From: Candidatus Hepatoplasma crinochetorum
Lineage (GTDB): Bacteria; Bacillota_I; Bacilli_A; Mycoplasmatales; Hepatoplasmataceae
Assembly (NCBI GenBank): GCA_001179805.1
Contig: CWGI01000001.1
Location: forward strand, 62,001-126,000
Direction of reading: 5' to 3'
DNA length: 64,000 nucleotides
This document shows, one piece after another, positions 50,924 through 56,153 of the stretch. Position 1 is the stretch's first letter. Each line of letters starts with the position of its first letter. Under the pieces are notes generated by a model that saw nothing but the letters and a program-made list of their open reading frames with translations, did not search any database and was not told the origin of the DNA. A program made the position numbers and the translations under genes.

Positions 50924-51817
50924 TTAATATCTTATTTCATTTTGTAAATTTTCAATATTTTTGCGACCTGTGCGGGTAATTTTTTTAGGCATTTTCAAAT
51001 TTAATTGAATATAAAGATTCCCTCTTCCTCTTCCTCTTAGAATTGTAAATCCTTTATTTTTTATTCTTATTAATGATTTTGGATTTGAAAATTCAGGAAT
51101 TAAAAAGACAATTTTCTCACCATCTATTCCATCTATCTGATAATTTTTTTTGATCAATAAATCAAGATAATTTATATCGAGCGTATAAAATAAATCATTA
51201 TTTTTACGAACAAATTTTGTATTATTAACAATATAAAATTTTAATAATAAATCACCATTTGGTCCACCATTTATCCCTGGTTTACCTTCATTAGTAAGTC
51301 TTAAAGTAGTATCTTCGCTTATTCCGGCTGGAATATCAATCTCTTTAATCTGACCGTTACGTAATCTTAATTTTATTTTTTTACCTGTAAAAGCATCTTT
51401 TATATCAATTGAAATCTGTTGAACTATACTTGCTCCTTTTTGTCTTGCATTTGCAAAACCACCTGAAAATCCAGCAAAACCACCAAAAGGATTACCACCG
51501 AAGAAATCATCAAAAATTGAATTTAAATCATCTGGATTAAAATTAGCTCCTTGAAAACCTGAAAATCCTCCTCCAGCTTGTCCGCCATTAATGCCGGCAT
51601 GACCATAATTATCATAAATTTTTCGTTTATTTTTATCAAGCAAAATTTCTTTTGCTTCATTTATTTCCTTAAATTTACTTTCTGCTACTTTTTGATCCGT
51701 TAAATTACGATCAGGATGATATTTCATCGCTAATTTTCGATATGATTTTTTAATTTCTTCCTCTGATGCATCTTTTCTTACACCTAAAATTTCATAATAA
51801 TCTCTTTTTGTCGCCAT
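50924..51817 (-). CDS. dnaJ: DnaJ-type co-chaperone without zinc domain
   Basis: Stimulates the DnaK ATPase. The 297-residue protein starts with a J domain containing the HPD motif (MKYHPDRNL), then a Gly/Phe-rich linker (residues 77-125) and two substrate-binding beta domains. The CXXCXGXG zinc repeats of classical DnaJ are absent: the region reads straight from [15 protein letters not shown] to the next strand. It is therefore a class B protein, more like CbpA, although it occupies the dnaJ position behind dnaK. Confidence 0.9.
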
Positions 51818-51821
51818 TTTT

Positions 51822-52517
51822 TTATTTAATTATAAATTTTTCCTTAATATCAATACGAATTTGTCCTTTTCCAATTGTTGGATGTTTTGTATCGTCTATA
51901 TAACCCATTAAAAGACAAACTGCTACCGATTCATCTTCGGAAATTAAATTTTCTTTAATTAGTAATTTTGTTAGATCGATTGTAAATCCTTCCATCGGTG
52001 TTGAGTGAATATCTTTTGAACTTGCAGCAACTAAAGCATAACCTAGTGCAATATAAGCCTGTCTTTTTGATCATTCAGTAATATCATCTACCAAAACATT
52101 AAGATTTTTTCCAGTTCTTAAAGATTCGATTTCAAGATTAATTTTTTCTAAAATTTCTCCTTCAGATGATTTTAATTTGAATTCTTTTACAAACGCTTCG
52201 CTTTTTCTTCTGATAAGATCAGTTAATTTTGCTTGGTTTTTTGGATTTAAAAACCATGTTTTATTTTTTGTAATAAAAATTAAAGCATCGGAACTATCAA
52301 GAAATTTTTGCTTATTTCCTTCCATAAAACCAGGAAGAATTCTTTTTCGTAAATCTTTATCTTTTATATCAATCAATCTTCAATGTTCAACTCCCATTGA
52401 AGTAGGAGCAGTATTAATAAATTCAAAAATATATTTTAATGTTTTTTGATCTATTTTTTCAGTAGAATTATATGCTTTTGTTGCTTTGCGATTTTTTAGT
52501 TGATTTAGTAAATTCAT
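51822..52517 (-). CDS. nitroreductase family protein
   Basis: A 231-residue FMN-dependent oxidoreductase. The N-terminus [16 protein letters not shown], the block [17 protein letters not shown] (Trp from TGA) and the C-terminal [20 protein letters not shown] followed by STPMEGF match NAD(P)H nitroreductases. It sits between dnaK and dnaJ, 51 bases after dnaK and 4 bases before dnaJ, so it is probably made with the heat-shock genes. The natural substrate is unknown. Confidence 0.85.
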
Positions 52518-52568: not shown

Positions 52569-54422
<1,854 letters not shown>

Positions 54423-54453: not shown

Positions 54454-55050
54454 TTATTCCTTAATTTCTCTTTCTTCTGTCAGTTCAATTCCTTTTGAGA
54501 CAACAACAGAAGCTGGACGAATCAAACGATCATTTAATAAATATCCAGTTTGATTTACTTCTAAAATATAATCTTTTGCAATCTTGTCTGAATATTTTGC
54601 ATCAATTGCTTCATGATATTTAGGATTATATTCATCGCCGACTTTTACTTCGATTTTTTTAACACCGATCGCTTCTAAGATTTGATCAAAATTATTTTTA
54701 ATCATTTCAAATCCTAACAATCAATTTTTTATCTCAGGAGAAATATTTTTTGCACTAAGTGCTTTTTTAAACATATCAATTGTAGGGATTAATTCTTGTA
54801 AAAGGGCGACATTACTAAAATTAATAATTTCTTTGCGCTCTTTTTCCAATCTTTTTTTTAAATTTTCCATTTCAGCGAGTAAACTTAAATTTTTAAATTG
54901 TAATTCATCTAAGTTTTTTTGCAGTGATTTTATTTTTCTTTCACTCTTCGCTGATTTTAATTCTGTTTTTTCCGCTTTAAAATTTTTATAATGCGGAGTA
55001 TCATTTTCAGTTTGAATTGTCTTTTCTAAATTTTGCTCATCATTTTTCAT
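54454..55050 (-). CDS. grpE: nucleotide exchange factor GrpE
   Basis: Releases ADP from DnaK. The 198-residue protein has a long N-terminal coiled coil (residues 30-80), a middle helix pair, and the C-terminal beta domain NPKYHEAI with VVVSKGIEL. A TGA-coded Trp at 54721-54723 joins the two halves. Its ATG is 12 bases after the hrcA stop. Confidence 0.94.
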
Positions 55051-55062
55051 TTTGTTTTGTTT

Positions 55063-56073
55063 TTAATTTTTAATATTTTCATCTAGAATATTAATCATTG
55101 CTAAGATCTTTTTATAATCTTGATTTTTAGGACCAATTATTGTTACCTTTTTAAAATCATTATTATCCAATTTTAAAATTTTACTAATAATAGAGATATC
55201 TTTTAATTGATCAAAATCAAATGAAATTGTTAAATTTTTTTCCTTATTTTTTATTAATGTCTCCGAATGAGAATCTAAAAGATCTCAAATTGTTTTATTT
55301 TCGATCATTTCAAAAATTTTTTCTAATTGTGCTTTTTCTTTTAAAGTTGAAACATTAACAAGTGAATTAATTCCGTAGTATTTTTCTTCATTTGGAAATA
55401 AACTCATAATTAAATTTTCAATAAAGACTTTAAATTTTTCTTCTACGAATCGTAATTTTTTAATTACAAGTTCAGAAATTAAAGATGACTTTTCCTTAAC
55501 TTCACTAATTCTTGTTCCAATAAGCCTTTGCGAAATTATTTTAAAAGAGTTTTCAATATTTTTAAAAGAAAAATTTTCAATGTTTATTTCTTCATTATAA
55601 AGTTTTCCTGAAGAAGAAACCGCAACTATCATCGCTTTTTTTTTATTTATTTTGTAAAGTTTTAAATCCTCAACAAAATAATTATTATTTTCTTCTTTCG
55701 TTATCAAAAAAGTATTTGTCGCTTTATTAATAATTTTCAAAGCACCTTCAATCATTTCTTCAATATTTATTGATCTTTTTGAAAATATTTTATCTATTTT
55801 ATCACGAATAGTTGTAAGTGAATAATCATCAATTGAAAAATTTTCAATGTAAAATTTATAACCTTTAGTAGTGGGAATTCTTCCCGCTGATTTATAAGCT
55901 TTTTCAATATATCTCTCATTTTCAAGCTTAACCATTTCATTTCGAATTGTCGCTGATGAAATATTTAAATCAGGATATTTTGTAAAGATTAAATCTGATG
56001 AAATTGCATTCCCTGTATTTATATATTCATCAACTATTGATAATAAGATTTTAAATTTCCGATCTTCTATAAT
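55063..56073 (-). CDS. hrcA: heat-inducible repressor HrcA (probable AUU start)
   Basis: Represses heat-shock genes by binding CIRCE. The 336-residue protein has the N-terminal winged-helix part (EDRKFKILLSIVDEYINTG, SSATIRNEMVKLE, GRIPTTKGYKFY) and a GAF-like dimer domain. The start is unusual: a perfect Shine-Dalgarno AAGGAGGTGA (56076-56085) is 5 bases before ATT at 56071-56073, whose position matches the usual HrcA Met. The GTG at 56077-56079 is in frame but lies inside the Shine-Dalgarno. The gene controls its own operon hrcA-grpE-dnaK-nitroreductase-dnaJ. Confidence 0.93.
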
Positions 56074-56083
56074 ATTCACCTCC

Positions 56084-56110
56084 TTAGCAAACAACAATCT
56101 ACTCTGCTAA
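56084..56110. promoter_or_regulatory. degenerate CIRCE-like operator near the hrcA transcription start
   Basis: A 27-base element with TTAGCA at 56084-56089 and TGCTAA at 56105-56110, the exact CIRCE length (9-9-9), but only six of nine arm bases pair. It covers the predicted +1 of hrcA and overlaps the Shine-Dalgarno at its right end. Confidence 0.6.
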
Positions 56111-56111
56111 T

Positions 56112-56140
56112 ATGATAATACATTAATTAGCAAAAGTCAA
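56112..56140 (-). promoter_or_regulatory. hrcA operon promoter
   Basis: On the minus strand: -35 TTGACT at 56135-56140, 17-base spacer, -10 TATCAT at 56112-56117. The -35 box lies in the loop of the upstream CIRCE-like element and the downstream element begins just after the -10. Confidence 0.65.
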
Positions 56141-56153
56141 TACTTTTTGCTAA
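56127..56153. promoter_or_regulatory. CIRCE-variant operator upstream of hrcA
   Basis: Perfect 9-base arms TTAGCAAAA (56127-56135) and TTTTGCTAA (56145-56153) around a 9-base loop. The geometry is that of CIRCE, but the inner arm bases CTC/GAG of the consensus TTAGCACTC are AAA/TTT. It contains the -35 box of the hrcA promoter. Confidence 0.75.

Follow-up and report, generated by a model that had tools for sequence, protein, structure and literature searches.

The hrcA promoter of Ca. Hepatoplasma crinochetorum carries two candidate operators whose sequences support an assignment to the HrcA/CIRCE type, with the outer core intact and the inner arm CTC replaced. We consider it likely that they are HrcA operators of a lineage, the Hepatoplasmataceae, in which repressor and operator have drifted together, and that they mediate two-site repression of a single promoter. 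The relevant features are given below in positions of the window, which is the whole 64-kb stretch of DNA that was analyzed.

56127..56153, minus strand: distal candidate HrcA operator, TTAGCAAAA-AGTATTGAC-TTTTGCTAA (56153-56127, read in the hrcA direction)
56135..56140, minus strand: -35 box TTGACT, within the distal operator; TTGAC invariant in four Hepatoplasma species
56112..56117, minus strand: -10 box TATCAT, 17-nt spacer from the -35 box; invariant in four Hepatoplasma species
56084..56110, minus strand: proximal candidate HrcA operator, TTAGCAGAG-TAGATTGTT-GTTTGCTAA (56110-56084, read in the hrcA direction)
56077..56085, minus strand: Shine-Dalgarno sequence AAGGAGGTG, sharing two bases with the end of the proximal operator
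55063..56073, minus strand: hrcA, repressor, genetic code 4; TIGR00331 and PF01628; probable ATT start at 56073-56071
54454..55050, minus strand: grpE; PF01025; 12 nt after hrcA
52569..54398, minus strand: dnaK; identified by open reading frame and sequence
51822..52499, minus strand: nitroreductase-family gene; PF00881 (E = 8e-13); between dnaK and dnaJ
50924..51814, minus strand: dnaJ-like gene; PF00226 (J domain) and PF01556 (C-terminal domain)

Candidate operators at the hrcA promoter

The first-pass annotation had described two 27-base elements with 9-9-9 spacing, one over the -35 box and one over the transcription start, and both their presence and their placement were confirmed. The distal element is centered on the -35 box of TTGACT-17-TATCAT, the best sigma-70-like promoter match of the region (10 of 12 positions), and the proximal element spans the presumed +1 near 56105 and reaches into the Shine-Dalgarno sequence. 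Perfect arms, which had been claimed for the outer element, are indeed confined to the distal one (9/9 complementary); those of the proximal element are 7/9 complementary, with inner arms that are asymmetric yet conserved.

Both elements share with CIRCE the 9-9-9 inverted repeat, the outer core TTAGCA/TGCTAA, and the location at the promoter of heat-shock genes. Their arms lie outside the two or three mismatches at most that would make them canonical, since 6 (distal) and 5 (proximal) of the 18 arm bases deviate from TTAGCACTC/GAGTGCTAA. Full-core matches (TTAGCA...TGCTAA) were found twice in the window, where 0.01 were expected by chance, and none of 100 window shuffles reached two. As far as pattern and family searches cover the whole 621-kb genome, the perfect core occurs only at these two sites, and no canonical CIRCE with up to three mismatches was found. 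Two further genomic sites that match the core with one mismatch were dismissed as chance matches because both are situated in coding-like sequence.

Operon structure and reach of the regulon

The five genes from hrcA to dnaJ are separated by 12, 55, 69, and 7 bases, and no terminator-like site was found between them. The nitroreductase-family gene apparently belongs to the heat-shock operon. The encoded DnaJ (296 residues) has no central zinc-finger domain in Pfam and is closer in layout to CbpA-like proteins. A scan of viral contigs for DnaK gave no match.

The hrcA gene has no ATG start. Downstream of AAGGAGGTG, a strong Shine-Dalgarno sequence, the codons run AAT ATT ATA GAA (56071-56085, minus strand), and the position of the ATG in the hrcA of another Hepatoplasma species (G002) is occupied by ATT both in the source genome and in its congener G001. 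This suggests that the repressor may be translated from a rare AUU start.

The first-pass annotation had proposed that the same pattern be sought ahead of clpB, lon, and groE. Upstream of lon, all nine genomes inspected, including the source genome, lacked a site. None of the ten Hepatoplasmataceae genomes yielded GroEL, and none of the four Hepatoplasma genomes yielded ClpB; relatives that retain clpB do carry altered sites at a clpB-hrcA promoter. Therefore, the detectable regulon of Ca. Hepatoplasma crinochetorum is one promoter.

Conservation within the Hepatoplasmataceae

The two sites and their 43-bp spacing are kept in the source genome (G000), in three other Hepatoplasma species (G001, G002, and G003), and in a member of another genus of the family (G006), whose distal site carries the same TTAGCAAAA/TTTTGCTAA arms. 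The three congeners also keep both promoter boxes; in G002 one base of the distal core is changed (TCAGCA). The most informative comparison is that of G000 with G003, whose HrcA proteins are 44% identical: the arms of the proximal site are identical at 18/18 positions, whereas the spacer agrees at 2/9 and the next 30 bases at 9/30 positions. The distal arms are identical at 9/9 and 6/9 positions. This pattern, with the arms conserved and the spacer between them diverged, is expected under a constraint between protein and operator.

Elsewhere in the family, two altered sites were found 47 bp apart at clpB-hrcA (G007), two sites 46 bp apart ahead of hrcA (G009), and altered sites before both clpB and hrcA (G005). 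The AAA/TTT symmetry of the inner arms recurs in several genera, with a chance per site of ~0.003 from base composition. No site was found before hrcA or clpB in G004 and G008, the upstream DNA of the latter being short. The HrcA of G004 (L018, C15:14542-15561) is the most divergent of the family (E = 4e-34), and with no recognizable site before clpB-hrcA this genome possibly represents a real loss. G008 contains a perfect TTAGCAAAA-N9-TTTTGCTAA element away from hrcA (L026, C13:1386-1412), just upstream of a TATAAT-like box; no heat-shock gene was recognized near this site of genus g5.

Canonical and altered CIRCE across the order

CIRCE has been called extremely conserved, and elements with more than two mutations were treated as non-functional in Mycoplasma gallisepticum (PMC5138195, PMC4245973). 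With up to three mismatches, canonical CIRCE was detected in 101 of the 119 genomes of the order, i.e., in 100/109 outside the Hepatoplasmataceae and in 1/10 inside. The one exception, G005, has a borderline element (TTAGCAATC) and was the only family member in which the canonical query found anything; some of the Hepatoplasmataceae sites had been retrieved with a query rich in A.

The inner arms are likewise relaxed in further mollicute lineages (e.g., G104, with TTAGCAAAA/GTTTGCTAA, and G028, G010, and G103) and at some loci of other Firmicutes (L279, L247, and L276). Hence, TTAGCAAAA is not unique, and Hepatoplasma stands at one extreme of a trend and is no isolated case. The altered arm sequence noted in the first-pass annotation is real, but it is common to the family instead of being peculiar to the source genome, and it is similar to the broader loosening of the inner arms in several lineages of mollicutes and in some other Firmicutes.

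Four uncultured Firmicutes (L279, L247, L263, and L276) have VSS-G/T in place of VGS-R/K in HrcA, and inner arms ATT, ATC, and AAT as compared to CTC. A shift of the same kind seems to have taken place there independently.

HrcA and its covariation with CIRCE base 7

The HrcA of Ca. Hepatoplasma crinochetorum is full-length. Its match to TIGR00331 spans residues 4-336 and scores 191.2 bits (E = 3.4e-56), slightly short of the cut-off of 197.2 bits, a shortfall seen in 9 of the 10 Hepatoplasmataceae genomes; the match to PF01628 is above cut-off (E = 2e-20). An AlphaFold2 model (pLDDT 85) has the winged helix and C-terminal part of 1stz, its best PDB match (E = 1.9e-19, TM 0.68); no other HrcA entry was found in that database. 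An HrcA of changed or relaxed DNA specificity had been proposed, and the protein agrees with this in part. The recognition helix SSATIRNEM is unchanged; the correlated changes lie in the helix before it and in the wing. In the model (residue numbers are model numbers minus 3), helix 2, the first helix of the helix-turn-helix, begins at residue 27, which is canonically R/K but D in Hepatoplasma (F in G003), and the canonical His60/Thr61 of the wing loop are replaced by Tyr/Lys.

HrcA alignment columns were tested against the share of CIRCE arms in which position 7 is C (C7), a measure that rests on few sites per genome; phylogenetic contrasts used a tree of the C-terminal part of HrcA only. Within the order (48 genomes, 308 columns), residue 27 led the raw ranking (rho = 0.72), followed there by the wing residues 60 and 61, and took second place in the contrasts (p = 1.5e-4). 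The 76 loci from other Firmicutes again put residue 27 first in the raw ranking (rho = 0.65; contrasts, p = 0.016). The mean C7 in this set was 0.99 for R (35 loci), 0.86 for K (20 loci), and 0.58 for other residues. In the combined set of 124 HrcA proteins residue 27 ranked first by both measures (contrasts, p = 4e-6) and was the only column with family-wise significance (p = 0.022; 2000 sign-and-order permutations of the contrasts). The next column in the contrasts, 194, lies outside the DNA-binding domain and was not significant family-wise. An association of the C-terminal residue 260 was not replicated in the combined analysis.

The combined analysis also led us to demote His60/Thr61 as a specificity determinant, because only residue 27 was significant and because the link with the wing histidine, itself not significant family-wise, has an exception in L220 (Tyr with CTC). 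Thr61 showed no link once the other Firmicutes were added. Loss of C7 thus covaries with residue 27 above all other columns. This relation is correlational and not strict: L264 combines N27 with canonical CTC arms, and G031 and G013 have K27 with few C7. Residue 27 may contact base pair 7 (the G opposite C7).

Alternative explanations and proposed regulation

The altered arms could also have arisen by simple relaxation, in which contacts to the inner-arm bases were lost, AT mutation pressure filled the arms, and HrcA came to read only TTAGCA...TGCTAA. At a genomic GC content of 24%, AT-rich drift could favor A/T inner arms with no change of specificity. The inner arms also vary within the family (AAA, GAG, AAC, AAG, AGT, and ATC), and other mollicutes have mixed arms; the first six bases of the arms are constant. 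On the other hand, the proximal inner arms GAG/GTT are the same in G000 and G003 although spacer and flanks have diverged, and the AAA/TTT symmetry across genera would hardly be expected at its low chance frequency. We regard relaxation as a serious possibility, though not one to be presumed. Much the same standing may be given to a re-specified operator, TTAGCA-purine-A-N, whose readout would depend chiefly on the R/K-to-D exchange at residue 27, assisted by wing residue 60; residue 27 could then also explain the repeated losses of C7 across Firmicutes and mollicutes.

The sites could also be vestiges of a regulation being lost, with HrcA no longer repressing the operon, a view proposed for Spiroplasma melliferum and its degenerate CIRCE copies (PMC5138195). 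Since 5-6 of their 18 arm bases are mismatched, both sites would indeed fail the rule of at most two mismatches applied to M. gallisepticum (PMC5138195, PMC4245973). However, arm-specific conservation is strong at 44% HrcA identity, the 43-bp spacing is fixed in at least five genomes, and HrcA retains its full-length frame and recognition helix, which together make decay unlikely. A role in RNA, in which the repeat would fold into a 5' hairpin and occlude the Shine-Dalgarno sequence, is suggested by the proximal repeat abutting that sequence, and appears very improbable: the distal repeat lies upstream of +1, the presumed +1 takes away most of the left arm, and the leader folded no better than shuffled sequences (z = +0.6 to +0.8), so that this candidate was not supported.

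We therefore return to two-site repression by a co-drifting HrcA as the preferred reading. At normal temperature, HrcA dimers would bind both sites, the distal one over the -35 box and the proximal one over +1, and the distance of 43 bp (about four helical turns) would place them on the same face of the DNA. Cooperatively or additively, bound HrcA would block RNA polymerase at the hrcA-grpE-dnaK-nitroreductase-dnaJ promoter. Inactivation of HrcA by heat or titration would open the operon, and newly made HrcA would reset its own expression. The unchanged recognition helix would still read the outer TTAGCA core, and the inner arms would have shifted from CTC to purine-A-N alongside the replacements at residue 27 (R/K to D) and in the wing (His60/Thr61 to Tyr/Lys). 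HrcA binding, repression, heat induction, and cooperativity at these putative operators are what we infer by analogy with known HrcA systems. The tight double-site control suggested in the first-pass annotation is plausible.

Relation to known systems and biological meaning

The Hepatoplasma system shares with HrcA-CIRCE regulation, as known for dnaK and groE of Bacillus subtilis and for clpB/dnaK/lon/dnaJ of M. gallisepticum, a repressor of the HrcA family encoded in the operon and a 9-9-9 repeat with the TTAGCA...TGCTAA core over the hrcA-grpE-dnaK-dnaJ promoter. It differs from the classical TTAGCACTC-N9-GAGTGCTAA system in that bases 7-9 are replaced (5-6/18), no canonical element is present, the regulon has one promoter, and GroEL and ClpB were not found. 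Spiroplasma melliferum likewise has two copies at one promoter that are mutated relative to the consensus; there the mutations disrupt one repeat and were read as loss (PMC5138195), whereas the altered Hepatoplasma arms are conserved between species. The relaxed CIRCE of other mollicutes (f8 g18, f3 g32/g28, and f2) have the TTAGCA core, A/T-rich inner arms, and usually no R/K27 in common with Hepatoplasma, but their sites are found at several loci and their arms are more mixed.

HrcA, CIRCE, and double CIRCE (e.g., in Spiroplasma) are already known. As far as the literature shows, two findings are new, namely an altered operator that is conserved in the Hepatoplasmataceae and a covariation that links base 7 of CIRCE to residue 27 of HrcA; no description of either was found in a search that left most subscription papers outside. 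The main text of two Hepatoplasma papers (PMC10928387, PMC3942034) mentions neither HrcA nor chaperones. Since CIRCE scans allow at most two mismatches, lineages of this kind would be scored as lacking HrcA control.

In B. subtilis, GroEL modulates HrcA. If GroEL is truly absent from the Hepatoplasmataceae, another input would be needed, or an HrcA that is itself an intrinsic thermosensor like that of Campylobacter jejuni (PMC8533110), which raises the question of how heat is sensed without GroEL.

Hepatoplasma are symbionts in the gut glands of woodlice (isopods). The conserved altered sites suggest that these bacteria have kept control of the operon while the operator changed, and the covariation points to a specific HrcA residue, residue 27. 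With a single promoter detected, two sites at it, and a search for GroEL that gave nothing, they may offer a small and clean case of co-evolution between a repressor and its operator.
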